Notes under the pieces: model-generated
Seen by the model: the letters and a program-made list of their open reading frames with translations, nothing else
What the model was told of the DNA's origin: nothing
Database searches by the model: none
Shown here: piece after piece, positions 7,766-42,932 of the stretch
Position numbering within the stretch: position 1 is the stretch's first letter
Layout: each line of letters starts with the position of its first letter
Position numbers and translations under genes: made by a program
Source: a virus
Reading direction: 5' to 3' (one strand)
Virus record (IMG/VR): IMGVR_UViG_3300025132_000045
Location: 1-57,165 of that record
Length of the DNA: 57,165 nt

Positions 7766-7780
7766 TACCTTTTTAGTTAT

Positions 7781-10700: not shown

Positions 10701-13417
10701 TCATACTCAAATGTTAAACTGTTTGGTATGTTTTTAACAGTAAATTCTCCATTATATCCTTTATCATCTTCACCCAAAGCACTACCACCCGAACCACCAT
10801 CTTTAATATTTTTGATGGTAACTAAATCACCTATTTGTAAATTATGAGGTCTCTCTGCTTGAATTGTGATGATATCTGTTGCATTATTGAACGTACAACT
10901 ACTAATAAATCTAGGATTTCTCTGAAATTCAAAATCTGATCTAGTAAGAGCATCATTTTTAGTAAAATCAGAAGATCCTCGAACACCAGTTGAACTTGAT
11001 TCTTGAATTACAAAACCGTTTTCTGGATTCTTTGAGTTTGAAATTTCTTTTGGTATTGCAAGTCTAACCTTATAAATTTTTTCATCAAGAGATCTCGTGT
11101 CTGAGATTCTTTTTACGAATGATGGTTCGGTTCTGCCAGTGAGTGATGCAATACTTGTAAATATATTGTTTCCTGTTTGAACATTAATAAACCATTGTGT
11201 TCCATCAAATTGTACAGGATGTCCTAAGTCACCAGAATCTTTATCACTGACACGACTTAATACTTTTAGATTTGTTCCTTTGTATACACTGATGAACTCA
11301 GAATTATCTGCATTAGTTTTTGAGGATGCTAATCTAAATGTATTAGTGGATCCTGTAGGAACAATAACAAAATATACTGTTTTTTCATCCAAATTCTCTG
11401 GTAAATCACCATCGTCACTGATAACAATTACCTTTTCACCTGTTGATAGTTTATGTGCTGATCCATCCGATGTTGTAAACAGACTTCCAGATGGTTCTCC
11501 AACCTCTATTGTTTTGACACTGGACAATGAAGGTGTGGCAGTGCCATCCTCCATCAAAATATTTGCTGATTTTTCTACACCAGCAATATCTACAAATAAA
11601 ACATCATTAACTTTGGCACCAACTCGGAAACCCTGAGTCACTGATGGTGGTAATATATCTTCAGAGGTAAATCCAAATAAATATAATCTTTTATCATTAT
11701 TAACAGTTTTTGTTTTATCAATATCTATGGTAACCCAATCAATATTTTCTTCAGATGAAGTTATTGCCCTTGGTGGTAATATATGAGTAATGAAAGCTCG
11801 ATCATCTTTTTGGAATGCATTTTTCTTAAATCCATCAGATACAAGTGCTAATTGACCAAAGTTAGAGTTTGAGTTAGTGATAGAAGCATCGGCACCCGAT
11901 TTTGCTTCAAAATGAATACCATATCCAATTGCAAATACAGATACAATTTGTAATACAGAGTCATTTGATATTTTTACATGTCTTGTCTCCCATCCATTTC
12001 TATAGATTGCATCAGAATCTAAGTGAAATACTTTCTCGGTGTCAGTTGCAGATGATTCTGATGAAAGTCTTTCATCAAAAACTGGGGTTATGCTCAATCC
12101 ACCATAATCTCTACCTGTCTTACTATATTTTACAAAAGCACGATCATCTTTCTGTAATGAAACTCCAGTAAATTGTGCAACAACCATTGAACGGAAACCA
12201 GTTGCCTTTGATCCATCCGCATGCATACCATTCATACCATAAACAGATCTCAACGATATGTTGAATATATAAGGTGATGCTCCTCCAACTGTATCGGTTT
12301 CAACTGTCACAGTTGCACCACTTACATTAGAGGCAGTTGCTAATAACTCATCAGGAACATCATCGAGAGCATATGTAAACACTTTTTTATTAGTCGCACT
12401 GACACTTGTTACCTTTGCTGAAATATTATATTCAAGAGGAATAACACCAGATATTTTAATTGGGGTTCCTACATCAAGATTATGATCCTGTTGTGTTGTT
12501 ACAGTTACAACAGGTGATACGTTTGATCCATCACCCGATATGAGACTCGTAATTGAAATTGGATCCGCCGCAAATGCACCAACAATTTCAAATTCAGGTC
12601 TTCTTGCAGCAAAACCATCAGTACTTGCAGGAAACTTGTCAACAATATTTCGATTCGTTGTTGCAGTACCATAAGCTAATGAAAGCTTATGGTAATACAT
12701 GTTCAAATCTGTTAATTCTGTTTGTTCGTTTAAATTTACTCCATCTGCATATTCAAATACTGTTAATTTGTGGTGTGAAAAAGTAGGAGTGCTTAATTTG
12801 CTGGTGAATGTTGTATTATCTGTATATACTAATTCATTCTCCTTTCCATCAAATACAGAAAATTGCCAGAAATAACAGGCACCTGTGATTCTAAAAATTG
12901 CAGAATTAGGAACTGATGGGTCTGTTGGGTTTGGAACATATTTTGGAATAATTTTTGTTTTTCTTAAATCAAGTCCAACAATTGAAGTTCCTCTTGGAAC
13001 AATAACTCCACCATGAACACTATTATATTTGTGTAAAATATTGTCTTCAGCTGTAAGGTCAAACTTAGAGTCTAAATTTAAAGACAATGAGTCTGTTGAA
13101 ACAATTCCACCTGCTTGATTTAAAACTTGTGCAGTGTTTATATCTATTTTTTTTATCTTGTATCCTGGTCTATTATCAATAATATGCTCACCAGGCATCA
13201 ATAATATTGTTGTTTTTTCTGTTATATCGTTATTATTACCTTGAACATAAGAAAATCTTGCTGACTCAATCAGTGCCCTTTGAACAGTTTTAAATGGTGT
13301 TGCTTGGGAATTACCCTGATTTGACATCGCATCACTTGCATCTAAATCACTTGGACTTACATAAAGAATACGACCTTCTACGTTTTTTAAGAAATTATCT
13401 AACTTATTCAGTGGCAT
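7781..13417 (-). CDS. Giant tail-fibre/tailspike with C-terminal S74 chaperone
   Basis: A 1878-residue virion protein. The N-terminal region (RILYVSPSDLDAS, ATPFKTVQRALIESARF, ILLMPGEH) has the pattern of a right-handed beta-helix of pectin-lyase type, with a TNSNSNFGQLALVSDG block shared with the 1565-residue fibre. The centre holds beta domains with Phe-Thr-Tyr-rich repeats. The C-terminus carries fibre modules (ATQFKGDGSQLDGLNN) and then a peptidase S74 intramolecular chaperone of about 95 residues. There the Ser1784-Lys1789 dyad in SDITLKKDI should cut the chaperone off after trimerisation, leaving a coiled-coil tail (VKELTSKVNSLENK). A CATAAATA late promoter lies 31 bases upstream of the start. 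Probable role: host surface binding, possibly with polysaccharide affinity. Confidence 0.85.
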   Translation of the reverse strand: MPLNKLDNFLKNVEGRILYVSPSDLDASDAMSNQGNSQATPFKTVQRALIESARFSYVQGNNNDITEKTTILLMPGEHIIDNRPGYKIKKIDINTAQVLNQAGGIVSTDSLSLNLDSKFDLTAEDNILHKYNSVHGGVIVPRGTSIVGLDLRKTKIIPKYVPNPTDPSVPNSAIFRITGACYFWQFSVFDGKENELVYTDNTTFTSKLSTPTFSHHKLTVFEYADGVNLNEQTELTDLNMYYHKLSLAYGTATTNRNIVDKFPASTDGFAARRPEFEIVGAFAADPISITSLISGDGSNVSPVVTVTTQQDHNLDVGTPIKISGVIPLEYNISAKVTSVSATNKKVFTYALDDVPDELLATASNVSGATVTVETDTVGGASPYIFNISLRSVYGMNGMHADGSKATGFRSMVVAQFTGVSLQKDDRAFVKYSKTGRDYGGLSITPVFDERLSSESSATDTEKVFHLDSDAIYRNGWETRHVKISNDSVLQIVSVFAIGYGIHFEAKSGADASITNSNSNFGQLALVSDGFKKNAFQKDDRAFITHILPPRAITSSEENIDWVTIDIDKTKTVNNDKRLYLFGFTSEDILPPSVTQGFRVGAKVNDVLFVDIAGVEKSANILMEDGTATPSLSSVKTIEVGEPSGSLFTTSDGSAHKLSTGEKVIVISDDGDLPENLDEKTVYFVIVPTGSTNTFRLASSKTNADNSEFISVYKGTNLKVLSRVSDKDSGDLGHPVQFDGTQWFINVQTGNNIFTSIASLTGRTEPSFVKRISDTRSLDEKIYKVRLAIPKEISNSKNPENGFVIQESSSTGVRGSSDFTKNDALTRSDFEFQRNPRFISSCTFNNATDIITIQAERPHNLQIGDLVTIKNIKDGGSGGSALGEDDKGYNGEFTVKNIPNSLTFEYETTRDNLGASATNDFSIEDISLPRFERTDLKSNIYLFRNTLVSEYIDSTQDGVYQVFALNSSNTIQEEYTNLSYSQNVVDLYPQLDRDNVNENPQASKSFAVRSPLGQVVTNDPLKSLTRETNDKLLKSIGIGQPLFSFTDNTTTGIVSFTTEHNFAGIMTATLHSGGANYTPNSGVATYRNVKVFNSTTQNDSTWNGTLSDVIVSNGAVTSFEITNAGSGWSAGNKGYFDANRIGAGNGVAILDGNISGAGLTSGNIGVSSDLVIQFTGLGTASDSYFRLKEVNDKKQITIHKTGADVDPIPDQYAFTVSSSSKVDTESFSGGLKTITTFEPHGLVAGNRFQLNNSSNINQGSYIVKTKVGVTTFTFELASDISVDNGFILKHGLSANDGVSDSGQENLSIRGVELFDNEHAKLSAQMGSGVGIATVDTTNTHNLLQRFPYGSYLLIDEEILRVSTNTLLGVNNDQVSVIRGVFGTVIKTHATGSLVKKIKPFPIQFNRPSILRASGHTFEYLGYGPGNYSTALPQVQVKTISEKEEFLSQSQERAGGAVVYTGMNNKGDFYIGNQKKSALTGEETSFDTPIPSVTGENPGRLSVVFDETTIKERLVVEGGKSKTSLSEFDGPVTFNKEVQLKDAVKIKTTTDSTSSTTGSLIISGGVGIAKTANLPDDAAIKFGNGGDLEIFHGSGGNYSNTNVIRTTNTNTLLIEVANGSAGLAVNHRTGNDISNFDNMITANPNDSVDLFFNGTRRLKTTNTGVVVTGILTATQFKGDGSQLDGLNNAQLLDSGSTVRAAATTSGLIISGITTVNGNIQLGSGNPEIELNGGGPRFRVPSANVLTIHTGGGFGSDENERLRVNTTGITVTGSGTFTDDVIAFSSSDITLKKDISPIKNALDMVNSISGNTFTWNTGLTPYENGTKDTGILAQEIEALGLPGVTITRDNGVKAVRYDRLIPVLIEAVKELTSKVNSLENK

Positions 13418-26075: not shown

Positions 26076-29000
26076 TTATTTATCAATAAGACCTCTCAAT
26101 TCTTCAATTTGTTTCTGTTGGTCTTTAACAACCTCAATCAATAATCCAATCAGTCCATTATAATTTACAGATTTTGGATCATTATTACTTACAATTTCTG
26201 GTAATACACTTTGAACATTATCAGCAATTACACCAAGAGATGGTTTATTGTCTGACTTCCAATTAAATGATACACCATCAATCTTTTTAATTTTTTCAAT
26301 TGGATCTTGAATAATTTGAATATTTGTTTTGACTTTTCGATCTGAAAGTGAATCAAAATTAGTCGCTGCGACGGTTCCAGCAACCTCCAATTTATATTGT
26401 GGAATTTCACTTCCAATACCAACATTACCACCTGATAATATGGTAAGTTTATTTGTTGGAACAGTGGCACCATCAGGTGTTGTTGCAAACGACAAACGTC
26501 CAGGAAAATCACTTCCACCCGTAGTATTGTCAGTAAACGCAGTGATATTTGCAAAATCTCCTCTACGATCAGCAAAAACAAGAGTTCCAATTGTAGACTC
26601 ATGAAGAACAGTAGATTGTGCTTGTATGGTTAAAACACCATATCCTGATGTAGAATCATTATTTCCACACACTATCAATCTACTGTATTGTGAATTGTGA
26701 CCTATTGCTCTATCCGTTCCCCCCATTCCGATTAGTCCATCATGACGGATCCTCATTCTTTCTAGATGTAAAGCTGTGTCATTATCAGACGTTTCAAAAA
26801 TCAGTGAGGTGGGTATATCAGCCTCCGCGCCAGGAGATACAGTACCCGTTACTTCAGCTTTAATTTTTGCACCTGTATTTGACAGGTCACCACCACCTGC
26901 TGATGAGTCGGCGGCATTGAATAGAATCTGTCCAAGAGAATCACCGAATTGAGTTGCAGTATTGGTGCCTATCGTTGGACTTTTTGATTTAGCAAAAATC
27001 AAAGATCCTGAACCTGTATCATTTGAATATCTAATAATTGAAATTCCACATGAAAATCCTGTGCCCACGACTTGTAATTGCTGATCAGCATGACCCACTA
27101 CTCCCTGTATCGCAGTTCCAACTTCTCTTCCAACAAGAACTCTATCTTGGAAATTAACATTATCATAAAATGTTGAAATTCCTGATACTCTTATACCTGA
27201 AGAATTGGTTACATCAATACCACCACCAGTTACGTCAATACCACCACTAGTTGTGATTATACCAACTGTTTCTATATTAGTTACGTCCTCATATGTTAAT
27301 GAACCATCAACCACAAGATTACCAGTGACTTTTGCACCAGTAGAATTGATACGGAATCTTTCAGTTGTAAGTCCTAATACTAAATCAGTTCCAGCAATTG
27401 ATATATTTGCTCTTTCTGCACCATCTTGATAGAATTTAATTAATTCTCCATCATCAGTAGTTCGATTTATTTCAAGAGGTGTTCCACTTGCCCTTGTTAT
27501 ACTAACAGAGTCACCCTTTCTTGCTGTAAATCCTGCGTTTGCTATGGTGAAAGAAGCATCACCAGTCGTTGTTACATCACCATTTGTGTTGATGCGAAGT
27601 CTTTCTGTTATACTTCCACTAGTATTTTTGGTGGATAATATCATTACTCCACCACCAACTGATTCAGATACCTGAATACGACCACAAGACTCAACCTGAT
27701 TAGCTTTGAGATCTATTGCAGAATTATTAGAAATATTTAAAAAATTTACTCCAGATTTATCACTCATATGAACATCAAATTTTGATGTTGGATCGACAGT
27801 TCCGATACCGACATCACCATCTGAGTCAATAATGAATTTTTCAACTGCATTTACAGAGAATTTTAACTCATTTTCAGAATGATCATAAACTATTCCTCCT
27901 CTCTTTCTATCGTCTCCTGAATTTCCATCTGCAAAATATATCTGCCCTAAAGTTCCATCACTATAGATGGTCATTCCACGACTACCACCACCATCACCAA
28001 CAACAAATTTATTTGTAATAAAATCGTCAGGAAGTAATCCACCTATTCCAACATTACCAAAAGTTGTAACACCAACAAAAGTACTTACACCAGTAACCTT
28101 AAAATTACCATCAACGAGTAAGTCACCATCAGGAACAATTGAGGTTCCAAAAATTTTTCTAGCAGTTAGAATACCAACTGCCAATGTTGCATTATTATCC
28201 ACAACAGCGTTGCTGCCAGTAGGATTAATAGTTCCAATACCAACGTCACCAGATGATGTTAATCTAAATCTTTCTGTTGGAACAATATCTTGTGCATTTC
28301 CAACAGAAGCTTGTGGATTAGTAAATATTTTATATGTTCCTCCAGCATATTCATGCATTTGAGATCCACTATACTTACCCTGTGTGTATCCATATGCTGA
28401 TGCAGAGTATCTGTAAACTCTGAGATTATGAGTAAGTGCATGATGCCTAGCTAATGAATTTTCAAATTCAAAAACTTGCAACGCTCTATCGTCTGTGGCA
28501 TTATTTTGATCTATTCTAATTGCTTCGGATACACCAAAAGTAGGATTTGGATTTGGTTGAATTGTTAATTTTCCACTACTTCCGATACCAACATCTCCAT
28601 TAGATGTGATGGTAAGACTATCATTCGATCCTCCAGTGGTAAATACTAATCCATTGGCACCAGTAGCACCAATACGACAATCAAGATCTTCACTTGTGGA
28701 TGTCTTAAAATCAATAAAAGCATTACTCGTATCACGAATTAATTCAAGTGATCCACCATGTAAAAGTGTGTAGTTTGATCCTCCTCTTGCTACTATGTCT
28801 CCAAGAACGTAAAGTTTAGGAGAAAAATTTTCAGGAGTTGAAGTAAATCCATCATTTAGATTAGTGGTTCCAATACCAACTTGACCATCCTTATTGATAG
28901 TAAGTCGTTTCTGCATCGAAGTGCTTAAAACTAATTCACCTTCATTGGTTCCTTTGTATTCTACTTGAATTTCTGCTAGGTTTCCAGTTCCTGGAGTGGC

Positions 29001-32000
29001 ATTAAAAAGTAGACCTGCTTTATTACCAACTGTACCATTTGTATAAATTGAAATATTACGACCTTGAGTTGAGTTAAAAGGTGATACGGTTAAAGTGGAT
29101 GATGGGGAGGTAGTTAAATCAGTTCCGATACCAACCGATCCTAAGATATGCAAATCATCAAAAAATGTAGATACACCAACCACTGATACTCCAGCTCCAG
29201 TCACATGAATTCCACTTTGAGCCGTGATGACTCCAACTGAATTTACATCTGCCATGGTGCTATATGTTATATTTCCATTAACATCCAAATTTCCTTCAAT
29301 GGTTGTATTCGTTGATCCAATACCAATGACAGTGGTTCCACCTGCTATCAAAGAGAGTGTATCACTAGCATGATCATAAGTAATCGCACCAACATCAGTG
29401 TCATCAGGATCAGCAAATTTTATTCTTGCTTGTTCATTATTTGGAGATAAGAAAGAAACACCAGGATCTGTATCCGATTCGATTACAATATCATTTGCAT
29501 CACTGTCAGCAGTTACGTTACCAGCAGAACCTTTAAATACATGTAATTTACCATCTGGACCATTAGTTCCGATGCCAACTTTACCATCTTTTGTAATGCG
29601 AAGTTTTTCAGACATTGGACTAGCACCGTGCTCCTGTGTCTTAAATATTAAACCTCCACCAAAATTACCAGTACCACTTTCCTTATAACCAAGTATTGCA
29701 CCAGTTCTTACCAAATGCGGACTAGCAGCATCCCATTTTTGTACAAAAACAATACCATTTCCTTCATCACCTGCATTGTTCCCTCTATTTGCTCGTACTG
29801 CTATGGCAAAATCCTCACCATAATATTCAGTGTCACTATTAGTTTCATTTCCAACTCCAATTTCTAATTTTGCATATGCACCACTAGTTCCGATACCAAG
29901 ATTACCACCTGATGTGATGGTCATAGCATCATATTGAGGACTAGCACCCGAATTACGAATTTTAAAAGCACCACCTTCATTTCTTATCTGATAATGATTA
30001 TATGAACCACTATCATCTCTCAATACAATTTTAGCAGCATCATCTGTTATATTTCTAACTACTACTCTTCCATCATAAATTTCTAATTTTTGTGATGGAT
30101 TAGTGGTTCCAATACCAACATCACCAGATGCAAAAATGTCAGTTACATCCAACTGACCATAAACACTGGCACCAATTCCAGATGTGGCAAATCGTTTTGT
30201 ATTATCATGTCTAATTTCAACACCAGCATTTCTGGTTGCACGTAACATTACCTCACCAGTATCACCAGAACCAGGTCTTAAATCAATATTATCTCCCTGA
30301 ATTAATAAAGAACCAGCTGTGGTATTTTTTACGAAACTATTTCCACCTGAATGATATATTTCTAAATCTTGATCTGTTCCAAAAACTAATTTTGCATTAT
30401 CTCTAAAGTAAGCTGTTGTTCCAAATCCGACTGTTACACCAGTTCCTATAAAAATATCATCATTAAATGTTGAGATACCAACAACAGATAAACCAGCACC
30501 AACATGAATTCCTTGTCGTGCAGTTATAATACCAATTGAATCAATATTTGTTACGTCTTCATATGTTAATGTACCACCAATTGATACACCTTGCTCAAAA
30601 GTGGCTATTCCAGTAACAAATAAATTTTTTGTTGATGTAACTCCAGAGACATTTAAAGTCGTAATATCTATTGACTGCTGAACAGCAGTGATATTTCCAT
30701 ATATTTGATTTGCAGTGAGTATACCAACGGCAAGAACTTTTGTATTACTTTCAAGGGCAGATTCAATATTTGATGCTGTCGGATTTGTAGTTCCGATACC
30801 AACATCACCAGATACATTTAATGTATCTGTTTCTGTATGGCCAGTTACATCAATTCCATCAGTAGTAGTAATTAATCTTTCTGTTCCACCTTGATATAGA
30901 GCAGCCCTAGCATTATTACCACTGAATAATTTTAGTATTGGTCTCCAACTCGCATCAAAGAATTGATATGCTCCTTCTCCAGGTCCACCATCTGTCTTAA
31001 ATACTAATGCACCTGTTCCATTCTCATGGATATATGAAGTCCAACCATCAACAATCGAATCTCCATTAGAATCATTTTGATCAGCAAGACTATTAGTATG
31101 TGATATTTGTAAATCTCTACCATTACCAAAGGTAGCTTTGGTTTCATCCTTAAATTCTAATGAATCTTGTGCTTTATCCCATAATAGGTTATAATTTGCA
31201 CCCGTAAAGGTTACATCATCATTAAATGTTGAGACACCAGCAACGTTTAATTGTTTTGTGAATAAAGTATTACCAGTGACAGTTGTAATTCCAGCAAAAG
31301 TTGTTACACCAGTAAATCGTGAGTCACCAAGAACATCTAATAATCTATCGGGTTGAGTTGAACCTATACCAATTCTACTATTCGTTGAATCAAAGACAAA
31401 ATTACTTGCACCACCAACTAAACCTGTATTATCATGAAACTGAATTTGTGTTATCGTTCCACCTGCACCAGATGTTACAGATCCTGAACTAATCCACTTA
31501 ACTCCACCTGTTGCAGTTTTTACTAAAAAATTACCAGTATTACCTGGTTGATTATCCTCTCCATATATTGTTTTATCTAATTTTATATTTCCTACAACAT
31601 GCAAATTCTGCGTGGGTGTTGAGGTTCCAATACCTACTGAACCTATTCCTGTTGTATTATCAAAAGTAAAAAATGGAGAAGTTGCAAATTCACCATCATT
31701 ATTGAATAGAACTCCATGATTGTCACCTGGTGGGGAAATAGTAACAGTAACAGCAGTGCCAGGTGATCCATCATTATTAATACTACCAACAGCAGTGACA
31801 GCAGATCCAATAAAGTTTATATCAGTAATGCTACTAATACCTAAATTTGGATTTGCATCTGTTCTCGGAACAATTAACCCTTCATCTCTAATAGTTACAG
31901 ATCCTGGTTGTATTCCCCCTCCAATTGGAACCCAAAACCTTTCACCAGGTCGATCAATTAATGAAACAACTTGATATTGTTGTCCACCAGGAACTGCATC

Positions 32001-32120
32001 TAATTCTGGTGGATCACCTAAATTAGGTTCTGCCTGTTCTAATCCAAGGTATTGATACCTGTCAGTTGTTAATGAACCTTGTGGAGTTCTTTTGACCCTT
32101 CCACTTAAATACTTTGGCAT
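26076..32120 (-). CDS. Giant 2014-residue tail-fibre protein with S74 chaperone
   Basis: A fibrous virion protein. The N-terminus (MPKYLSGRVKRTPQGSLTTDRY, LGLEQAEPNLGDPP) differs from its neighbours and may attach to the baseplate or preceding fibre. The shaft repeats VGIGT.NP, LTYEDVTNI and STF.D.V modules; related DNA and protein repeats occur in the 3156- and 1565-residue genes. The C-terminal 89 residues are a peptidase S74 chaperone with the Ser1926-Lys1931 dyad (SDRKVK) and SFNWKSDNKPSLGVIADNVQSVLPEIV, ending in a coiled coil (VKDQQKQIEELRGLIDK). Self-cleavage after trimer folding is expected. Its stop codon forms part of the late promoter motif of the next gene. Confidence 0.85.
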   Translation of the reverse strand: MPKYLSGRVKRTPQGSLTTDRYQYLGLEQAEPNLGDPPELDAVPGGQQYQVVSLIDRPGERFWVPIGGGIQPGSVTIRDEGLIVPRTDANPNLGISSITDINFIGSAVTAVGSINNDGSPGTAVTVTISPPGDNHGVLFNNDGEFATSPFFTFDNTTGIGSVGIGTSTPTQNLHVVGNIKLDKTIYGEDNQPGNTGNFLVKTATGGVKWISSGSVTSGAGGTITQIQFHDNTGLVGGASNFVFDSTNSRIGIGSTQPDRLLDVLGDSRFTGVTTFAGITTVTGNTLFTKQLNVAGVSTFNDDVTFTGANYNLLWDKAQDSLEFKDETKATFGNGRDLQISHTNSLADQNDSNGDSIVDGWTSYIHENGTGALVFKTDGGPGEGAYQFFDASWRPILKLFSGNNARAALYQGGTERLITTTDGIDVTGHTETDTLNVSGDVGIGTTNPTASNIESALESNTKVLAVGILTANQIYGNITAVQQSIDITTLNVSGVTSTKNLFVTGIATFEQGVSIGGTLTYEDVTNIDSIGIITARQGIHVGAGLSVVGISTFNDDIFIGTGVTVGFGTTAYFRDNAKLVFGTDQDLEIYHSGGNSFVKNTTAGSLLIQGDNIDLRPGSGDTGEVMLRATRNAGVEIRHDNTKRFATSGIGASVYGQLDVTDIFASGDVGIGTTNPSQKLEIYDGRVVVRNITDDAAKIVLRDDSGSYNHYQIRNEGGAFKIRNSGASPQYDAMTITSGGNLGIGTSGAYAKLEIGVGNETNSDTEYYGEDFAIAVRANRGNNAGDEGNGIVFVQKWDAASPHLVRTGAILGYKESGTGNFGGGLIFKTQEHGASPMSEKLRITKDGKVGIGTNGPDGKLHVFKGSAGNVTADSDANDIVIESDTDPGVSFLSPNNEQARIKFADPDDTDVGAITYDHASDTLSLIAGGTTVIGIGSTNTTIEGNLDVNGNITYSTMADVNSVGVITAQSGIHVTGAGVSVVGVSTFFDDLHILGSVGIGTDLTTSPSSTLTVSPFNSTQGRNISIYTNGTVGNKAGLLFNATPGTGNLAEIQVEYKGTNEGELVLSTSMQKRLTINKDGQVGIGTTNLNDGFTSTPENFSPKLYVLGDIVARGGSNYTLLHGGSLELIRDTSNAFIDFKTSTSEDLDCRIGATGANGLVFTTGGSNDSLTITSNGDVGIGSSGKLTIQPNPNPTFGVSEAIRIDQNNATDDRALQVFEFENSLARHHALTHNLRVYRYSASAYGYTQGKYSGSQMHEYAGGTYKIFTNPQASVGNAQDIVPTERFRLTSSGDVGIGTINPTGSNAVVDNNATLAVGILTARKIFGTSIVPDGDLLVDGNFKVTGVSTFVGVTTFGNVGIGGLLPDDFITNKFVVGDGGGSRGMTIYSDGTLGQIYFADGNSGDDRKRGGIVYDHSENELKFSVNAVEKFIIDSDGDVGIGTVDPTSKFDVHMSDKSGVNFLNISNNSAIDLKANQVESCGRIQVSESVGGGVMILSTKNTSGSITERLRINTNGDVTTTGDASFTIANAGFTARKGDSVSITRASGTPLEINRTTDDGELIKFYQDGAERANISIAGTDLVLGLTTERFRINSTGAKVTGNLVVDGSLTYEDVTNIETVGIITTSGGIDVTGGGIDVTNSSGIRVSGISTFYDNVNFQDRVLVGREVGTAIQGVVGHADQQLQVVGTGFSCGISIIRYSNDTGSGSLIFAKSKSPTIGTNTATQFGDSLGQILFNAADSSAGGGDLSNTGAKIKAEVTGTVSPGAEADIPTSLIFETSDNDTALHLERMRIRHDGLIGMGGTDRAIGHNSQYSRLIVCGNNDSTSGYGVLTIQAQSTVLHESTIGTLVFADRRGDFANITAFTDNTTGGSDFPGRLSFATTPDGATVPTNKLTILSGGNVGIGSEIPQYKLEVAGTVAATNFDSLSDRKVKTNIQIIQDPIEKIKKIDGVSFNWKSDNKPSLGVIADNVQSVLPEIVSNNDPKSVNYNGLIGLLIEVVKDQQKQIEELRGLIDK
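26077..26084 (-). promoter_or_regulatory. T4-type late promoter (GATAAATA) overlapping a stop codon
   Basis: GATAAATA on the minus strand, 35 bases before the start of the 3156-residue fibre gene. The final A residues are the TAA stop of the 2014-residue gene, so coding end and promoter are fused. Confidence 0.5.
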
Positions 32121-33118: not shown

Positions 33119-36100
33119 TTATCTTAATGCTAGTATTAATGGTGTAACTTCTGCTTGCAATGATCTACTAAAGTCTCTTCCTGAAATTGTTGCAGTTGTT
33201 TGATTTATTTGTAATCCTGAACCAATATCAAAGTTACCTTTTTGATCGGTTGATGTAAATGGAATTTGTGCTCCATCTTTTGCTACAATTTCATTCTCTT
33301 TTATAGGAATTGCACCTTGTAGGGGTGTCGCTATATTTATATCTGTACCCGTACCAACATATTCAAATGAATGGGAACTTGTTAAGACTCGACTAATTCT
33401 TTGAAGTGTAAATGGATCATCTGGAAACAACTCATAAGGAACAAATTCATTAAAAGTTATTGTGGTTATTCCACTTGGATTTTCTGTTTGAGTTGCCGAT
33501 TCAACTGTAAAATATATTGGCTCCATGACAGCAGTGGCAATTCCAGTTTCACCTTCAATATCTACAACTATATTTTGAGTTGAGAGATAATTTCTACCCT
33601 GTGCCACCACATTAATTGCAGTTATGTTTCCAGTTGGACTCACTGTTGCTGTAGCCTCAGCGATAATTCCTTGTGGTCCTTTTGGTTCAAGTTCTCCATC
33701 AGCATCTCTTATTAAAACACTCGGTGGATCAAAAGCACTATATCCACTTGCATCAGCACCTTCAATTAAATTTATAGATCTCAACTGTCGAAGTGGAGCT
33801 GTAATTCTTCCACTTCCCACAGTGTCTGGATAATTATCCAAATCAATTTTAAAGTATAATGCTTGTCCATCAAATGGTCTTCGAACTGCTCCAGTGAAAG
33901 GCATCGTGTTATTTCCATCAGAATCATCTTTAACATTTGCACAAACAACAGTATCTTGACTATCAGCTGAAGTACTGAGTATAAGTTCGTTTGCCGTATT
34001 CGTATTACTTACAATTCCTGTGAACTGAGTTGATCCTAATCCAACTGCCACTAAACCAAAATTACCAAAAGATGAGTTTGAGTTCGTAAGGTCACACTGT
34101 GCACCAGATCCTGCAAAAATACCAATATCACAGTTAATAGTAAATATTGAAACTAATTGTGCATAAGCATCATTTGTTAATGATACACCAATACCATTCT
34201 CATTATATTGTGTAAAAGAATCACATACCATCGATTTTAAATCAGCACCTATGGTAGATGCAGTAGCGTGATTTCCATCTATTTTCATTCCAATACTACT
34301 GGTCATGAAGTTTGTACAGTTTCTTACGTATGGTGATCTCCATCTTCCACTTGGACCTTCAGTTGCAGGTCCAGGTTCTTTGTAACCACTAACTGCACCA
34401 TGTCCACCACCTGATGGTGGTGGAAACGCAACGCATGCTGATCCATCATAAGCAACTCCTACATTTGATCCACCAAAGTTCAAATTCTCAACAAGACATC
34501 CTCTTCTGACATGAAAAACATCTTTATTTTTATTTTTTGGTTTAATTATAACTAAACGAAGATCCTCTCCTGTTACTGATACATCTGTTCTTAATCCAAT
34601 TGGATTATCTTCTTCATAAACACCAGGTCTAATCTTGATTGTATCAGTCTCAACTGCTATCGATGCTGCAGCACCAACAGTTGCTTTTGCATCACCCTCA
34701 AGTAATCCACTATTATTATCAGATCCACTTTTAGAAACCCATATTGTTCTTTTAGTTTGAACTCCAGATGGTCTCCATGATACACCAGTTCCGACTGATG
34801 CTAAACGATAATCATCTTTGACATATAATCCAGATGAATGAATTACACCACCACCTGATACAAATGTATGTGCAACTCCAGCAGATACACCACCATCTCC
34901 TAAATTAACTTCAAATTGATCTGTTTGAACATTAGATATAACTAACCATTTACCACTATTTGGATCTTTTGATCTTGGATATGATTGACTACCAGTTACA
35001 CCCTTGTAATCACACTGAAATGTTAATGTTCCATCTGGAATTTTAATCGAATCACCATTTGCAAAACCATGATTAGCAATGAAAATTGTCGTGATACCAG
35101 TTGTCGCATTATAAAAAGCATTAGTTATGTCATTTGAGAGATTCTCAGCAACTGTAGTACCAACGTCATCATTACGATCTTTAATCGTGCTATCAAAATC
35201 AACCGTACTACTGAATGTTGAGATACCTGTGACATTAAGAGTTTCACTAATATTAGTGGTATCTAACTCAGTTCTTCCATCTACGTCTAATCCTCCAGTA
35301 CCAATATCTGCCTGAGTAGCAGTTACAATACCAGTTATATCAACACCACTATTATTTGTTTCTAATATAAGGTTTCCTGAAGAATGTAATTTAACATTAT
35401 GTGGACTGTCACCCTTAACTATGATACCTTCTGTTCCATTTGTGCCTTGTATTTTAATATCCTTGTCAGTATTCGTCTGTTGAATGTATAAATGACCAGT
35501 TTCTGCTGTGATATATGAATCACCATTATGATATATCTCTAGTCCGTCTGATGTTCCAAATATTAATTGTTTATCATTTATTAATCTAACATTATCATTA
35601 AATGTTGAAAGACCTGTGACGTTGAGAGTTTCACTAATATTGGTAATATCTAATTCAGTTCTTCCGTCTACATCTAAATTATGTTGTACAGTTAGATTAG
35701 AATTTATACCAACCTCACCACCAAATGTTGATAAACCTGTAATATTTAAAGTTTGTGATTCAAGATTTCCAAAAACTGTAATTCCAGATCCAACAGTTCT
35801 TAATTTCTCTATATTGGCAGTAGTTCCATCTTGAGATACTCCTATCAGACTAACTGCACCACTATATCCAATACTTACAGTTCCAAGGTTACCTGGTAAT
35901 ATGTTTATCCCAGAAATAAGTGCAGTATTTGTCTGACCTATTGATATAACATCAGTATCTTTCTGTATTACTGATCTTAAATATCTATTATCATTACCTC
36001 CACCAGCAACTTCCAATGAATAAATACCAAAGTTTTCATTTACAATAATTGCACTATCAGTTTTTGTTTCTCCACTTGGATGTGGAGCAGTAAATGATCC

Positions 36101-37816
36101 ACCTGTCAGATGAATCATATTTGAGGTTATTATACCTGAATTTGATATTTTATTTGTAAATATCTGATTGTTAAATGTAGATACACCTACAAAAGTAGAT
36201 ATTCCACCCACTCGAAGTGTTTCACTAATATTAGTGGTATCTAATTCGGTTCTTCCATCTACATCTAAATCATCATTTACATCAACCGCACTACCAAATG
36301 TTGAAAAACCAGATACATTTACATCATCTAATTCTGTGTGACCATCTACATCTAAATCTTCATTTGCGACTATATTTCCACTGAATGTAGCAGTTTCAGA
36401 AACATTTAAAACATCTAAATCTGTTATACCGTCTACATCTAAATTATGTTGTACATTTAGATTAGAATTTATACCAACCTCACTAACAAATGTTGAGATA
36501 CCTGTGACGTTAAGAGTTTCACTAATATTAGTGGTATCTAATTCGGTTCTTCCATCTACATCTAAATTTTGTTTTGCAACTATATTTCCTTCGAATGTGG
36601 CAGTTTGATCAACACTTAAAGTTCCTACTAACTTTGTATTTCCAATTACATCTAATTTAACACTTGGAGCAGAACTTCCAATACCAACATTTGTCATTCT
36701 GTAAATGCCAGTATCTACTCCTACGTGTCCCTCTTCAACTCCCCAAAAATCAGAAGTAAATACAGTAGCTAAACCAGTTCCAGAAACAGCATTTGCAGCA
36801 GTTGCAGTTACATTATCAACTCCAATACCAAAACTGTTTTCCTGTGCAAAATTAATCGATGTAAAAGTTTGAGCAACTCCAGCAACAGGAACTGACTGAC
36901 CTTCATTCTCTATTTCAATTCCATCTCCCTGTCCTGGTGCAATTTGTGTCCATCGAATACCAGTTCCAGTTCTTTTTAAAAAATAGTTAGGTTCTCCAGG
37001 TGTTCCCGAACTATCATAGATGTTTCTTGAAATTGAAACACTACCATCAACAACGAGTCTTAAAGATCCTTGACCACTTTCATCAAACTCTGATAATGAT
37101 ACAGGTTGTATTACATCGGTTCCAAGTCCAACTGCTGATGTTCGAATACCAACATCATTTACAATTAAATCACCTGAAGATATAACACCATTACTACTTG
37201 TTTCGAATTTTTTATAATTTGCATGTAATAATTCTACACCTGCACTGTTTGTAAATACTGCGTAATTTTGGTTGTCAGATTGATTTGTTAAAGTAATTAC
37301 ATTTGATCTTATATCAAGAGTTCCGCTGGCATCTTCAATTTCACTACCTCCAGCGGTTTTAACATTTATGGTATTAAAAAATGTAGAAACTCCAGCAGAA
37401 CTTAATTGCTTTGTAAATAAAGTGCTTTTTTGAGTTGTGATACCAGTTAATGTTGATATACCCGTGACTAAAAGAGTTTCTAACTCTAAATCTTTTATCT
37501 TTGCTTTTCCAAATACATCAAGTAATTCTGTTGGTGTTGTAGTCCCAATACCAATTTTACCAGGATTTAAAAGTGAATTTACACTTAATACTGTTCCACC
37601 TATACCTACTTTTAAAAAATCTCTAACTTCTAAATCAGGAAATGATAAACCTTGATTAAAAGTAACTTGACTTGTAAATGTAGCAATACCAGTGATTGAA
37701 AGACTAGATGAATTAATTTCAGGAACTGTTAAAGATCCCCTAATATCAACATCTTTCAGAAAAGTTACATTTTCATTAAATTGTGCCTCATTACCAGTTA
37801 CAGATATATTTGACAT
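33119..37816 (-). CDS. Giant 1565-residue tail-fibre protein with beta-helix domain
   Basis: The N-terminal two thirds repeat fibre modules such as LDVDGRTELDTTNISETLNVTGISTF, where copies of the DVDGRTEL unit are nearly identical at DNA level. From about residue 1070 a right-handed beta-helix begins (RTIWVSKSGSDNNSG, TIKIRPGVYEEDNP, GCLVENLNF, VRNCTNFMTSSIGMKIDG, TNSNSSFGNFGLVAVG). This pectin-lyase-type domain is characteristic of cyanophage tailspikes and may bind or cut surface polysaccharide. The YPRSKDP motif links it to the 331-residue protein. The C-terminus resembles the linker region of the 1878-residue fibre. It follows the small 33-codon ORF. Confidence 0.8.
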   Translation of the reverse strand: MSNISVTGNEAQFNENVTFLKDVDIRGSLTVPEINSSSLSITGIATFTSQVTFNQGLSFPDLEVRDFLKVGIGGTVLSVNSLLNPGKIGIGTTTPTELLDVFGKAKIKDLELETLLVTGISTLTGITTQKSTLFTKQLSSAGVSTFFNTINVKTAGGSEIEDASGTLDIRSNVITLTNQSDNQNYAVFTNSAGVELLHANYKKFETSSNGVISSGDLIVNDVGIRTSAVGLGTDVIQPVSLSEFDESGQGSLRLVVDGSVSISRNIYDSSGTPGEPNYFLKRTGTGIRWTQIAPGQGDGIEIENEGQSVPVAGVAQTFTSINFAQENSFGIGVDNVTATAANAVSGTGLATVFTSDFWGVEEGHVGVDTGIYRMTNVGIGSSAPSVKLDVIGNTKLVGTLSVDQTATFEGNIVAKQNLDVDGRTELDTTNISETLNVTGISTFVSEVGINSNLNVQHNLDVDGITDLDVLNVSETATFSGNIVANEDLDVDGHTELDDVNVSGFSTFGSAVDVNDDLDVDGRTELDTTNISETLRVGGISTFVGVSTFNNQIFTNKISNSGIITSNMIHLTGGSFTAPHPSGETKTDSAIIVNENFGIYSLEVAGGGNDNRYLRSVIQKDTDVISIGQTNTALISGINILPGNLGTVSIGYSGAVSLIGVSQDGTTANIEKLRTVGSGITVFGNLESQTLNITGLSTFGGEVGINSNLTVQHNLDVDGRTELDITNISETLNVTGLSTFNDNVRLINDKQLIFGTSDGLEIYHNGDSYITAETGHLYIQQTNTDKDIKIQGTNGTEGIIVKGDSPHNVKLHSSGNLILETNNSGVDITGIVTATQADIGTGGLDVDGRTELDTTNISETLNVTGISTFSSTVDFDSTIKDRNDDVGTTVAENLSNDITNAFYNATTGITTIFIANHGFANGDSIKIPDGTLTFQCDYKGVTGSQSYPRSKDPNSGKWLVISNVQTDQFEVNLGDGGVSAGVAHTFVSGGGVIHSSGLYVKDDYRLASVGTGVSWRPSGVQTKRTIWVSKSGSDNNSGLLEGDAKATVGAAASIAVETDTIKIRPGVYEEDNPIGLRTDVSVTGEDLRLVIIKPKNKNKDVFHVRRGCLVENLNFGGSNVGVAYDGSACVAFPPPSGGGHGAVSGYKEPGPATEGPSGRWRSPYVRNCTNFMTSSIGMKIDGNHATASTIGADLKSMVCDSFTQYNENGIGVSLTNDAYAQLVSIFTINCDIGIFAGSGAQCDLTNSNSSFGNFGLVAVGLGSTQFTGIVSNTNTANELILSTSADSQDTVVCANVKDDSDGNNTMPFTGAVRRPFDGQALYFKIDLDNYPDTVGSGRITAPLRQLRSINLIEGADASGYSAFDPPSVLIRDADGELEPKGPQGIIAEATATVSPTGNITAINVVAQGRNYLSTQNIVVDIEGETGIATAVMEPIYFTVESATQTENPSGITTITFNEFVPYELFPDDPFTLQRISRVLTSSHSFEYVGTGTDINIATPLQGAIPIKENEIVAKDGAQIPFTSTDQKGNFDIGSGLQINQTTATISGRDFSRSLQAEVTPLILALR

Positions 37817-37819
37817 ATT

Positions 37820-37921
37820 TTAATCTCCCACACACAAATTATCAATACTTGCTTCAACGTCAGTTAAGTTTGTACTACTAATAATATTCAGTTTATTTAC
37901 ATTAAAACTTTTATCTGCCAT
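37820..37921 (-). CDS. Small 33-residue ORF between protease and fibre genes
   Basis: ATG at 37921 to TAA at 37820, reading MADKSFNVNKLNIISSTNLTD and ending in NLCVGD. The gap between the protease and the 1565-residue fibre is otherwise empty. A CATAAATA motif lies 13 bases upstream, followed by AACTAAAAA; the same 14-base run ATAAATAACTAAAA precedes the 666-residue fibre gene. The start MADKSFNV resembles the beginnings of fibre proteins, so it could be a tiny structural gene or the remnant N-terminus of one. Too short for a function call. Confidence 0.45.
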   Translation of the reverse strand: MADKSFNVNKLNIISSTNLTDVEASIDNLCVGD

Positions 37922-37948: not shown

Positions 37949-40036
37949 TTACTTAATAACGAGTTGACCACCAAAAGATAATCCATTACCTAAAAATCTC
38001 ACAGAATATTCTCCGTCAACGGTAGGAGATTCACCTTCCCCTTCTTCTGCCTCTCCATCTCCTGTAAGAGGATTAAACAAAACACGATTTGATGCCCCTC
38101 TCAAATTACCGTTGCCACGAAAATTATAGGATGTATTTGGAATTGATGCTTCATCGGTTGCTGCATTGTATCCTAAAGACCAATATCCTGTGTCGTTTAT
38201 TCCACTGTATGGGTCAGACATTAAATTATTTTTACATGCCGTGCCTGTCAACCATGTTCTGATTGAACTTTGTGTTGCTGTTCTGTTGTTTTGTAAATAA
38301 ATTGCAATTAAAGAGCAAACATTAGGACTTGCAGAACTTGTACCACCAAAAAATGTATCATAAAAACTTGAATTATCTTGTCTTTGATAATCTTCACTAT
38401 TCGCATATCCTGCAGCCAATGATTGTTCTGCAGGTGCAAATATATCAACCATCGGACCATTTGCAGAATAAGCTGTTTTTCTTATGGAATATTTTGTGGC
38501 ACCTTGCTTTTCATCTGCTGGTTCAACAGCACAATCTATTGCACCCACTCGAATTGTCCCCTTACCTATATCATGATCACCTGAAAATCCTTGTTGAACT
38601 CCTCCAACACGATTGATAAAATCACCAGACGAATATGTGCTATCAGTATCATAATATTTGTTATCAAAATCAACATCATTTTTATCTGATAATTTTTGAT
38701 TTGAATTTCCTGCCGAGGCAACCATTATACATCCTGCAGCGATCGCATTTTCTGCAGCACTACTAGTAGAAGAATTTCGAGTCGGATACTGACCAGTTCC
38801 AGCAAAAGAATAGATACCTGATCCATTACCATCATTTCTATTAGCAGAAATATATTTGTGATTACGACAAGCACCTGAATTTGATGGTGGATTTATGTTA
38901 CTACCATTACCCGTATACGTTGTATTACTTCCCCTAAAAGAATGATAATAAGTTGTGCCATTTGTATTTTCAGTTGAAGTGCCTCCACCATAACTATTAT
39001 TGATTATGGTTGGATCAGGATCGTTTGATGCTGCTTTTTTTGCATTGTGAAATATTGCACAAGCATTTAATGCAGTGGCCGCACTTAAGAATGCAGGATC
39101 ACTACCAAATGAAATTCTAACATTCCAGAGATTACATTGAAATGCAAGTCCAAAATTCTTACCACCAATTTGCGATGCACAAGATGTGCCATGTGATCCA
39201 TTCATTGAATTTGATCCATTTTTACTATGTGCATGTATTCTTGTGTAATTCGAATTAATTGTTACTGTTCCAAGACTTTGAAACGCAGCTGATCTTATAG
39301 ATGTATTTGACCACCATTCTCTTGCTCTTGCCTCTTGAGCACGAGTTCCAATATTGACACCATCTATAGTTACTGTTGTTGTATATCCACTAAAAGCTGT
39401 TGGATCTGCTTTGTAAGGACCATCAAGAATCACATCAAATACTCTATATGTACTACCACTAATAAATTCTGGGTGAAGAATTCCTATACCGTTGTCAATT
39501 ATTACAGCATCTACATTATTTCCAGTAACAGTGTAATTTATATCACGATCTACAGTGTTTGTTGTAGTAATACCAACTCCTTGATATGGTTTACTGTCTG
39601 GATCACTTACAAATAACATAGACCAATTTGAACGAACATTATTTGTATATCCAGGAGTAAAGTTACCTATACCACCTGGTAATAATGGTTTTGGGAAAGC
39701 AACAACATTTCCAAATCTTGCAGTATGTTGAGATTCTGGTTGTGGATACTTATCAGGATTTAATTCTACACTTTCAACTCTATCATGTGTTTTGAGAATT
39801 TCTGACTCTGCAACACTCATCTCATATATGGCAGTTCTTAATGAAAATTCTTGAATGTTTGAACAGTTTACCTTTCGATTGGGTATTCCATCAATTTCAT
39901 TTTCATTAATAATATAATTATGAACTATCTCCCAATCTTCTGGTAAATTTACAATAACCACATACTCATCAATTGCATTTGGAGTATAACTAATGATTGG
40001 TGTATCTAATGAGTCTCCAACTGTGCTAATATTCAT
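37949..40036 (-). CDS. Subtilisin-like serine protease (S8), virion-region
   Basis: A 695-residue protein with a complete subtilase catalytic set. Asp181 is in AVIIDNGIGILHPEF, His282 in NGSHGTSCASQIG, the oxyanion Asn444 in MVASAGNSNQ, and Ser567 in FFGGTSSASPNV. The insertion between His and Ser is large, and the first 170 residues look like an N-terminal pro- or assembly domain (YVVIVNLPEDWEIVHNYII, VESVELNP). No signal peptide is visible, so it acts in the host cytoplasm or in the virion. The C-terminus (GEYSVRFLGNGLSFGGQLVIK) is a small beta domain. It sits between the hub needle genes and the fibres, which suggests a tail-associated protease that processes fibre or hub proteins or attacks the host surface. 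Some cyanophages have comparable genes, but its target is unknown. Confidence 0.85.
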   Translation of the reverse strand: MNISTVGDSLDTPIISYTPNAIDEYVVIVNLPEDWEIVHNYIINENEIDGIPNRKVNCSNIQEFSLRTAIYEMSVAESEILKTHDRVESVELNPDKYPQPESQHTARFGNVVAFPKPLLPGGIGNFTPGYTNNVRSNWSMLFVSDPDSKPYQGVGITTTNTVDRDINYTVTGNNVDAVIIDNGIGILHPEFISGSTYRVFDVILDGPYKADPTAFSGYTTTVTIDGVNIGTRAQEARAREWWSNTSIRSAAFQSLGTVTINSNYTRIHAHSKNGSNSMNGSHGTSCASQIGGKNFGLAFQCNLWNVRISFGSDPAFLSAATALNACAIFHNAKKAASNDPDPTIINNSYGGGTSTENTNGTTYYHSFRGSNTTYTGNGSNINPPSNSGACRNHKYISANRNDGNGSGIYSFAGTGQYPTRNSSTSSAAENAIAAGCIMVASAGNSNQKLSDKNDVDFDNKYYDTDSTYSSGDFINRVGGVQQGFSGDHDIGKGTIRVGAIDCAVEPADEKQGATKYSIRKTAYSANGPMVDIFAPAEQSLAAGYANSEDYQRQDNSSFYDTFFGGTSSASPNVCSLIAIYLQNNRTATQSSIRTWLTGTACKNNLMSDPYSGINDTGYWSLGYNAATDEASIPNTSYNFRGNGNLRGASNRVLFNPLTGDGEAEEGEGESPTVDGEYSVRFLGNGLSFGGQLVIK

Positions 40037-40044
40037 AATTTACA

Positions 40045-40641
40045 CTATCTACCTAAATCTGGTACATCTCCAGTTCCAGAAACAACTGGTCCAGATATAA
40101 ATTTATCACCTGCAGGAGGATTTTTAAGATAATCCTCACCAACATAACTACCTTTAAATACTCTCTGTAAAAAACCACCAGCAGTTTTCTCAATCAAATT
40201 GCCAATAAGACCTTTTGCCTGTACCTTTGTTCCTTTCAAAGTCACTGTTGATGCAGCGTTTAAAGTTATGTTTCGACCAGCTTTTAAATCAATATCTTCG
40301 TCTGCCTGAACAATTACACTTCCTCCAGCAATTTTTACCTGACCATTACCCATCACGGTTATTGTAATATCTCCCTCAACTGAACTAATTTTAACAGAAG
40401 TATCACTTCCACTATTCTTAGATCCTGCAACCACCTCAATTGTTCTTTCATTATGAAGTCGATAAACTCCAGATTCACTTAAAGCAGAAAACTGTTTGTC
40501 CTTATTATCTGTAACAGCATATTGTAAATATGTATTTGGACCATCAGATCCCATCTGTGGATTATTCACATCAAGTCGAAACTTAGGACCTTTACTATCA
40601 ATCCTTCTTGCTTCCCAATTTTGATTTGATTTTTCTGCCAT
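40045..40641 (-). CDS. Needle beta-helix protein, gp5 C-terminal-like
   Basis: A 198-residue protein whose middle (residues about 85-150) repeats short strands, VEGDITITV, GNGQVKIAGG, VIVQADEDIDLKAG and RNITLNAASTVTLKG. This is the octapeptide-like beta-helix pattern of the T4 gp5 needle and related spike proteins. T4 gp5 carries this prism as its own C-terminal domain; here it is a separate gene directly after the gp5 homologue. It probably forms the membrane-puncturing tip of the baseplate hub. It ends with a basic linker and GNLIEKTAGGFLQRVFKGS, which may contact the hub. Confidence 0.6.
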   Translation of the reverse strand: MAEKSNQNWEARRIDSKGPKFRLDVNNPQMGSDGPNTYLQYAVTDNKDKQFSALSESGVYRLHNERTIEVVAGSKNSGSDTSVKISSVEGDITITVMGNGQVKIAGGSVIVQADEDIDLKAGRNITLNAASTVTLKGTKVQAKGLIGNLIEKTAGGFLQRVFKGSYVGEDYLKNPPAGDKFISGPVVSGTGDVPDLGR

Positions 40642-42932
40642 TAGTAACCACCTCCATATCCACCACCACCTGATGGAGGAGTGCTTGGTGGAGGAGTGCT
40701 TGGTGGTGGAGTCGTTGATGTATTATTTGTCATAGTTGATGTTGGAGTTATAGTTGGTTGATCCGTTGTAGTGTCTACTTGTGTGGTGGTTGATGCGACA
40801 CCTATAACAGATGGTGTGAAACTTTGCTCTGGTGTGTCATAAATTATTTCATGTGGCACTGAAGTGTGAACTGCACCTACCATTTTTTCACCAGTTTTAG
40901 GGTGGAAATGATAAGGACCGTAATATGGTTTACCGTTTACATATCCCACAATTTGATTAGTTTCTGGTCCTACACAATCTATAACTTGAATTATATCGCC
41001 TTGTGGAGTAAGAGGTAATCTACCTATTATTGGTTTGATAAGTGCACCGACACCTGTGGATGAAGAAACAACAATTTTAGGTATTTCCGTAATTCTAACA
41101 TTATTTATTGGAGTCGCAGATATAATTACACCATTGTCAATCGTTAAATTATATCCATCTGCAAACGCATCAATATATCCTTGTCCACCATCTATTACTT
41201 TAGTTCTAATAACACCAACAGGAGTTTCATCAGAATTTATAACATCATCAGTATTCGCACTCGGATAATTTTCTCCATCAGAAATCATATCTACACCAAT
41301 AATCTGACCATAAGTATTTGAATTTGGATCATAATCAATAATAGATCTTCCAACTGCACCATATCCTTGTCTACATGGATCTTCAAAACTTACAACGGGA
41401 GGAGTCGTGAAGTATGTTGAACCTGGATCTGTAATCTCAACACCAATAATACTTGCAGTTCGACTCACATCCGCAGTAACATCAGATAATCCTTCTGTAT
41501 TATCTACAATACCACCTAATATGACTCGACCCAATCCACCAATACCATCACCACCAAAGAAACTGACAGTTGGAGGTCCACAAAAAGTTTTAGTCGCACA
41601 GTCTGGTTTTGTTAAAGGACCACTATCGGCACCAAGTGTGTCTGCAATATTCATATTTTTTAAAACATTATCATAAGCATCCTGTAAATCGAATGTTCTA
41701 GCAGCACCGTATCCAAGAGTAAATTTTTTGACTTGACCCACACATTTACCATCACTTTGATTACAATCTAATACTCCACCAATCGATTTAAATACGTCAG
41801 AACTACTTCGAAGAAAATCTTGAACTTTAAAACTTTTTGGAACAATATCACTCAATCCTTCAAGTGGTGCATCAAGAGCTGATGATATATCATTTGTAAT
41901 TCCATTTAATAGTGAACCAGCTAATTGTTCAGTAATACATGTTCCAGTATCCACCACTTCAAAAACAGCTGATGTAATCATATCTCGAATTGTTTGTCCT
42001 AATCCATTAACGACTTTACCACTCAAACAGTTAAGATCATCTTGAAGTGATTTCACTTTTGATACTTGTGCTTTTTGTGCTTCAATACCTGCAATTTTTG
42101 CAAGACCACTATTTTGAGTGGCTGCAAATACAGTTCCATATACTTTATTATACAATGAATCCAATCCTCCCTGAAGTTCAGGAATCATACCTGAATACAA
42201 AGATTCCATCATTGTTGACACTGCACTATTTGATAAATTTTGTATTTTTTTAGTTACGTTCGCAACATCAGATAAAAAATCTGTGCTTTCACTCGCAACT
42301 GATAGTAAATTATCCAAACTTGCAGATACTTTTCCTATAAAATTATCTGCACAAGCATCAGCAGGTATTTCTGACTTCCCAAAAGTAGATGATGCTGATA
42401 TTTTATCTTCACCTTTACCTACTTTTCGTGTGACAGGAGATTCTTGTGAATCTGGGTCTGTGCCACCAGATTCATCCTCTTTCAATGTACCACTTACAAC
42501 TGATATATTATCATTATATCCAGTAAATGGTATAAATCCAATTGATTCTGAGGGTAAATCCTTTCCAACATCTTTTGTTCTTGCAAAAGATCCTAATATC
42601 ATGGGTTGTTGTGCGGTTTCACCATCAAGAAAAAATCCAATTACAACATCACCTGGTCTTAGTTCGATAGATGTTGCAAAATTTGCTCCTCCCGTTCCTG
42701 ATGTAGAGGGAAGCATAACATTAGCCCATGGTAAATCTTCATCAGGCAAATCTGCCTTTGAAAAGGGATGATATCCCATGATACGAACCTTTAATCGATT
42801 ACCCCATGTTTTACTTCCTTTTTTTGGTGCAAGTTGTTCCCCTTGTGCTGCTGATGGTGCAATTTGACCTACCCACCAACGGAAACCATCCTTTCCTACA
42901 AAATTAGTTTTAAGTAATGATTCGTCTATCAT
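40641..42932 (-). CDS. 5: Baseplate hub protein gp5 (OB-fold domain)
   Basis: A 763-residue hub protein. Residues about 1-125 match the gp5 N-terminal OB-fold (FRWWVGQIAP, GNRLKVRIMGYHPF, PWANVMLPS, RPGDVVIGFFLDGE, PMILGSF). The T4 lysozyme domain is absent; instead there is a long helical region (about 160-400) and beta domains. A motif at 669-700, PYYGPYHFHPKTGEKMVG then HTSVPHE, has clustered histidines and is conserved in cyanophage gp5. The last 60 residues are Thr/Pro-rich and then Gly/Tyr-rich (STPPSGGGGYGGGY), probably flexible. It is followed with one-base overlap by the separate needle protein. Confidence 0.8.
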   Translation of the reverse strand: MIDESLLKTNFVGKDGFRWWVGQIAPSAAQGEQLAPKKGSKTWGNRLKVRIMGYHPFSKADLPDEDLPWANVMLPSTSGTGGANFATSIELRPGDVVIGFFLDGETAQQPMILGSFARTKDVGKDLPSESIGFIPFTGYNDNISVVSGTLKEDESGGTDPDSQESPVTRKVGKGEDKISASSTFGKSEIPADACADNFIGKVSASLDNLLSVASESTDFLSDVANVTKKIQNLSNSAVSTMMESLYSGMIPELQGGLDSLYNKVYGTVFAATQNSGLAKIAGIEAQKAQVSKVKSLQDDLNCLSGKVVNGLGQTIRDMITSAVFEVVDTGTCITEQLAGSLLNGITNDISSALDAPLEGLSDIVPKSFKVQDFLRSSSDVFKSIGGVLDCNQSDGKCVGQVKKFTLGYGAARTFDLQDAYDNVLKNMNIADTLGADSGPLTKPDCATKTFCGPPTVSFFGGDGIGGLGRVILGGIVDNTEGLSDVTADVSRTASIIGVEITDPGSTYFTTPPVVSFEDPCRQGYGAVGRSIIDYDPNSNTYGQIIGVDMISDGENYPSANTDDVINSDETPVGVIRTKVIDGGQGYIDAFADGYNLTIDNGVIISATPINNVRITEIPKIVVSSSTGVGALIKPIIGRLPLTPQGDIIQVIDCVGPETNQIVGYVNGKPYYGPYHFHPKTGEKMVGAVHTSVPHEIIYDTPEQSFTPSVIGVASTTTQVDTTTDQPTITPTSTMTNNTSTTPPPSTPPPSTPPSGGGGYGGGY

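Follow-up and report, generated by a model that had tools for sequence, protein, structure and literature searches.

The subtilase gene and its neighbourhood

The stretch of viral DNA analysed here (IMG/VR record IMGVR_UViG_3300025132_000045, 57,165 nucleotides, hereafter the window) is T4-like: Pfam and PHROG matches identify a hub, baseplate, tail tube, gp32, PhoH, a helicase and large fibre genes. The gene under study encodes a subtilase, and the features in and around it are as follows.

33119..37816, minus strand: tail fibre, 1565 aa, directly downstream of the subtilase (phrog_17885, 516 bits)
37820..37921, minus strand: 33-codon ORF, MADKSFNVNKLNIISS..., probable remnant of a fibre N-terminus (matches the MADKNFGVK... 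fibre family found 3' of the subtilase in relatives)
37949..40036, minus strand: subtilase gene, 695 aa (Peptidase_S8, 60.2 bits; PHROG 9158, 236 bits; proteinase K-like model)
37952..38017, minus strand: C-terminal tag DGEYSVRFLGNGLSFGGQLVIK, residues 674-695, proposed attachment peptide (fits the looser tail motif)
38228..39544, minus strand: catalytic domain, residues 165-603 (Peptidase_S8 match over residues 179-603; Foldseek)
38336..38338, minus strand: codon of the nucleophile Ser567 (motif position and family alignment)
38705..38707, minus strand: codon of the oxyanion-hole Asn444 (motif position and family alignment)
39191..39193, minus strand: codon of the catalytic His282 (motif position and family alignment)
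39494..39496, minus strand: codon of the catalytic Asp181 (motif position and family alignment)
39746..39973, minus strand: pro-domain-like region, residues 22-97 (AlphaFold2 secondary structure; weak hhalign similarity, 34%, to subtilase propeptides)
40045..40641, minus strand: spike-like protein, 198 aa, directly upstream of the subtilase (phrog_3363 and weak baseplate matches)
40641..42932, minus strand: baseplate hub with an OB domain (phrog_1922, 388 bits; Gp5_OB below its cut-off)

The initial annotation proposed a complete subtilisin-like protease of 695 residues at 37949-40036, lacking a signal peptide, with Asp181, His282, Asn444 and Ser567 intact and with the hub or needle and the giant fibre genes on its two sides. 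The open reading frame is real, on the minus strand (which was not given there), and all four residues occupy canonical subtilase motifs: D181, H282 (HGT), N444 (AGN) and S567 (GTSSASP). The OB-fold hub, the spike-like protein and the large fibre genes were likewise found, and the N-terminus is not hydrophobic (maximum 15-residue Kyte-Doolittle mean of 0.8 over the first 75 residues), in agreement with the absence of a signal peptide. Pfam Peptidase_S8 (PF00082) matches residues 179-603 with 60.2 bits (curated cut-off 21.8, E = 2.7e-16), and the profile of PHROG 9158, a family without a function label, matches residues 22-612 with 235.8 bits. The AlphaFold2 model, which was built on an alignment of 39 sequences and has a mean pLDDT of 74.5, has a core resembling proteinase K (Foldseek E = 9e-13; TM-score up to 0.78, normalised to the target).

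The four catalytic residues are invariant in all 94 aligned sequences, the window included, which rules out a degenerate site in the relatives; the loss of these residues in homologues, which the initial annotation had named as evidence against its proposal, is thus not observed. Given also that the dN/dS of the subtilase is 0.25-0.35 against both close and distant relatives, indicative of purifying selection, and that the Pfam and PHROG profiles match, a chance ORF can be dismissed. At the level of sequence, the window gene is shown to encode an intact subtilase, with a catalytic site that does not vary within the family.

A close relative, a 210-kb contig (locus L014), encodes a subtilase 96% identical to that of the window and carries psbA, and therefore the window phage very probably infects marine picocyanobacteria. 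No Pfam match to Peptidase_S77, the T4-type head maturation protease, was found in the window subtilase, and L014 has a Peptidase_S77 gene separate from its subtilase, so that the subtilase does not stand in for the head protease. When GTDB genomes were scanned with the window protein, a search sensitive to close relatives only, no cellular relative that would point to a recent acquisition was detected. Elsewhere in the window, an 1878-aa fibre (7781-13417, minus strand) carries a C-terminal Peptidase_S74 (self-cleaving chaperone) domain, and a 2014-aa fibre (26076-32120) has, by PHROG matches, a similar terminal sequence.

The N-terminal region

For the N-terminal 170 residues, the initial annotation considered either an assembly domain or a pro-domain. 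AlphaFold2 predicts a beta-alpha-beta-beta-alpha-beta order at about residues 22-97, followed by a poorly predicted linker (residues about 98-160). Strand-helix-strand-strand-helix-strand, predicted for residues 23-92, is the order of elements in subtilase pro-domains. In hhalign comparisons with the propeptides of subtilisin and proteinase K, the match of this region is weak (34% probability, E = 4e-4, 23 columns); no I9-type propeptide was detected in Pfam or PDB-profile searches, and where Foldseek alignments extend across the pro-domain of zymogens of known structure, their rmsd is large. Judging from the predicted fold, this is likely a pro-domain, and of the two original options the assembly domain is the poorer fit.

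The subtilase family in marine cyanophages

Relatives of the window subtilase are encoded in at least 530 IMG/VR stretches. The loci compared comprised 12 from phage records and 87 IMG/VR locus entries, with one contig shared by both scans; clustering the 94 alignable sequences, window included, at 70% identity gives 54 groups, and the median identity between pairs is 32%. In three loci (L041, L051 and L052), the matched stretch contains a truncated or interrupted subtilase frame, through sequencing errors or gene decay.

By sequence, the window subtilase belongs to the T4-like marine cyanophage family PHROG 9158 / T4-GC292 (P-SSM2, S-SSM7). The gene has been annotated before: the P-SSM2 and S-SSM7 records state “contains PF00082 domain”, and the S-WAM2 record gives “subtilisin-like serine protease”. 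A possibly related S8 peptidase cluster, T4-GC518, has been described in P-HM1 and P-HM2 (PMC3037559). Beyond T4-GC518, we found nothing directly relevant on phage virion subtilases in the open-access literature, and the S-CREM1 paper does not discuss the peptidase of that phage.

A fibre connector domain next to the subtilase

In 90 of the 98 loci that have a gene upstream of the subtilase, this gene is on the same strand and no more than 60 bp away. The length of the upstream gene is highly variable (up to 2056 aa) and its C-terminus is conserved as a domain of about 105 residues, the profile of which matched 58 upstream genes. Elsewhere in the loci, the profile matched in L041, the locus with a shortened subtilase frame, and in two genes, both downstream of the subtilase. 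A tblastn search with the P-SSM2 copy of the domain against 50,697 phage records retrieved 18 records, which represent some ten independent phages; in all 18 the subtilase adjoins the domain.

The predicted structure of this domain is an eight-stranded beta-sandwich (mean pLDDT 87.6). Its best PDB match is T4 gp9 (E = 9.8e-6, TM-score 0.57 over the query, 12% identity), with chains of phage fibres and tailspikes ranking next, and thus the fibre end is predicted to adopt a T4 gp9-like, fibre-connector fold. By sequence, the connector domain has at most weak, scattered matches in PDB. A comparison of the connector domain with I9 revealed no relation.

A second IMG/VR scan, anchored on the connector domain alone, yielded 79 checked loci, which overlap the first sample in some contigs. 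In 66 of these, a subtilase is encoded within 400 bp, and in L125, it lies slightly further away. Among the remaining 12, the place next to the connector fibre (hereafter the slot) is taken by a Laminin_G_3 protein in L128, by a tandem Laminin_G_3 protein in each of L131 and L132, and by a 136-aa protein in L111, whereas eight loci (L149, L156-L158, L160, L165, L166 and L171) lack a slot protein, the MADKNFGVK fibre being the next gene. Since connector fibres without a slot protein exist, the subtilase is not a requirement for the domain. Overall, the subtilase is tightly linked with the C-terminal domain of a fibre in most of the relatives.

Other fibre types also occur upstream of the subtilase. 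In one subtilase clade (part of L064-L101), the upstream fibre ends in another conserved module, NGDMIYN... (...NGDMIYNTTTNKFQGYANGAWVDLH), and in the S-RSM4 type, it is of a third kind. The connector type is spread over deep branches of the subtilase tree, and the window subtilase nests within a connector-associated clade. No connector-domain fibre was found in the window or in L014-L016, in a search that lacked a positive control, which makes this empty answer weaker. Because of the position of the window subtilase in the tree, the simplest reading is that its lineage lost or moved the connector-domain fibre and kept the protease. The place that a MADKNFGVK-type fibre occupies 3' of the subtilase in relatives contains, in the window, only the 33-codon ORF, which is conserved in length in L014-L016 and shows no synonymous but a few amino acid changes among near relatives, as expected of a remnant.

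Fusions and a shared C-terminal tag

Some of the subtilases are extended at the C-terminus, to between 885 and 2145 aa. Laminin_G_3 is fused to the subtilase in L006 (S-SCSM1), L017 and L030; a 2145-aa fusion in L009 (S-TIM54, 6387-12824) includes Ig-like domains and fibre sequence; and fibre-like extensions are present in L044-L049 and L093. The three Laminin_G_3 fusions fall in different clades of the tree, which suggests independent fusion events. Thus, the subtilase is both exchanged with and fused to Laminin_G_3 proteins.

A short C-terminal tag, for example, SISGVNISGISFTQS, is common at the ends of the slot proteins. When 972 C-termini were searched with a profile derived from 18 tails, 57 subtilases matched, and the only non-subtilase with E < 0.01 was the slot lectin of L128; the tail of the window subtilase was not among the matches of this tighter profile. 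A looser motif is found in 75 of 114 subtilase tails, including that of the window, and in 33 of 858 other C-termini; a Fisher p-value for these counts is not a valid probability, given that the subtilases are kin to one another and that the motif was drawn up after inspection of the tails. The tandem lectin of L131 lacks the looser motif. The tag is short and degenerate. For attachment, it is a better candidate than the N-terminal part of the protein.

Association with the virion

The S-SCSM1 record labels three neighbouring products as virion proteins: the subtilase (gp144), the connector-domain fibre encoded upstream of it (gp145) and gp143, the next protein. By hand count, there are 47 such marks, compared with the 45 proteins reported from mass spectrometry of CsCl-purified virions (PMC9602691), so the mark does not correspond exactly to the published list. 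The paper names three proteins as non-structural, among which NMNAT and D-alanyl-D-alanine carboxypeptidase bear the mark under these names in the record. Therefore, the mark very probably denotes detection by mass spectrometry. The virion association proposed in the initial annotation is accordingly borne out as probable, through the marked S-SCSM1 homologue.

Possible functions of the subtilase

The exchange and fusion with Laminin_G_3 proteins favour a host-surface substrate over the maturation of a phage protein. Because, in the relatives, sugar-binding proteins can replace the subtilase next to a tail-fibre gene or be joined to it in one protein, the best explanation, to which we assign roughly even chances, is that an active subtilase would be a structural part of the tail that cuts a protein on the host surface. 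The enzyme would be synthesised as a cytoplasmic zymogen, the N-terminal domain (residues ~22-97) acting as a chaperone and blocking the active site until cleaved. The linkage, the fusions and the virion-protein mark suggest that it then becomes part of the virion at the tip of a fibre. The docking site in most relatives would be the gp9-like domain in which the neighbouring fibre ends, with the C-terminal tag perhaps making the contact; in the window lineage, where the search revealed no connector-domain fibre and the gene lies behind the hub and spike genes, the site would have to be another one, perhaps the hub complex or the fibre encoded downstream. At the cell surface, the subtilase might cut an outer-membrane or surface-layer protein, clearing the way to the receptor or exposing it.

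The main rival is an assembly protease: during morphogenesis, it would cleave a fibre or hub protein of the phage, for example, by trimming the conserved C-terminal domain off the neighbouring fibre, and would remain on the virion as a by-product. Close linkage to a single fibre domain would be expected of an enzyme and its substrate no less than of two docking partners, the lack of a signal peptide is compatible with such a role, and in the window the subtilase adjoins the hub genes. However, connector fibres without a slot protein, or with a lectin-like one, imply that the cleavage would be dispensable, fusions with Laminin_G_3 and Ig domains are not expected of a maturation enzyme, and the head protease has an S77 gene of its own; we consider this role unlikely, albeit one to be taken seriously. 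The missing signal peptide would equally fit a protease of host takeover, made late or injected, that degrades host proteins in the cytoplasm, but the gene is always found in the tail or fibre module, the protein is fused to adhesin-type domains and the S-SCSM1 homologue carries the virion mark, all of which makes such a function highly improbable. Slightly more improbable still is a subtilase fold retained solely for binding, as an adhesin: non-enzymatic Laminin_G_3 proteins can occupy the same slot, yet all four catalytic residues are intact in 94 of 94 sequences, whereas some loss would be expected in a pure binder.

Returning to the tail-borne, host-directed protease, a broader proposal, which we put at somewhat below even, is that in marine T4-like cyanophages the fibre with the gp9-like end forms an exchangeable tip slot, that its occupants are zymogen subtilases, lectins or fusions of the two that share a C-terminal tag, and that proteolysis of the host surface is a swappable adsorption trait. 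What is new here is the gene context, that is, the connector fibre and the slot, the gene itself being already known by annotation; we found no open-access paper that describes such a module of fibre connector and slot protein. If these proposals are correct, abundant ocean phages proteolyse surface proteins of marine picocyanobacteria at entry, and a long-annotated “hypothetical protein” acquires a role. The linked fibre domain is a concrete candidate for a docking or substrate partner.

Comparison with known systems

The window protein is 27-33% identical, over most of its length, to members of PHROG 9158 / T4-GC292 (P-SSM2 PSSM2_297, S-SSM7_232 and S-SCSM1 gp144), with which it shares the invariant catalytic residues and the location in the tail module. 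Unlike these relatives, the window copy lies behind hub and spike genes rather than a connector-domain fibre, and, in contrast to S-SCSM1 gp144, it is not fused to Laminin_G_3. The cyanophage subtilases of the S-RSM4/S-WAM2 type have a homologous catalytic domain and a similar tail-fibre neighbourhood but are shorter (about 550 aa), and the fibre encoded upstream of them has another terminal domain. With the proteinase K-like subtilases (aqualysin I, keratinase and proteinase K), the window protein has the catalytic fold and motifs in common, at about 16-18% identity, and differs in its large insertions, tail context and lack of a signal peptide.

The likeness to T4 gp9, the long-tail-fibre connector, is at the level of the predicted fold only and concerns the C-terminal domain of the neighbouring fibre in the relatives, a domain not found in the window. 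In enzymatic tailspikes and branched tailspike complexes, a tail-tip enzyme is docked on another fibre via a T4-baseplate-like connector domain. To our knowledge, tail-tip enzymes of phages are mainly polysaccharide-cutting or cell-wall enzymes. The resemblance is one of working principle, with a protease here and a polysaccharide-cutting enzyme there, and in the proposed role, the subtilase would be the protein-cutting counterpart of such tailspikes.
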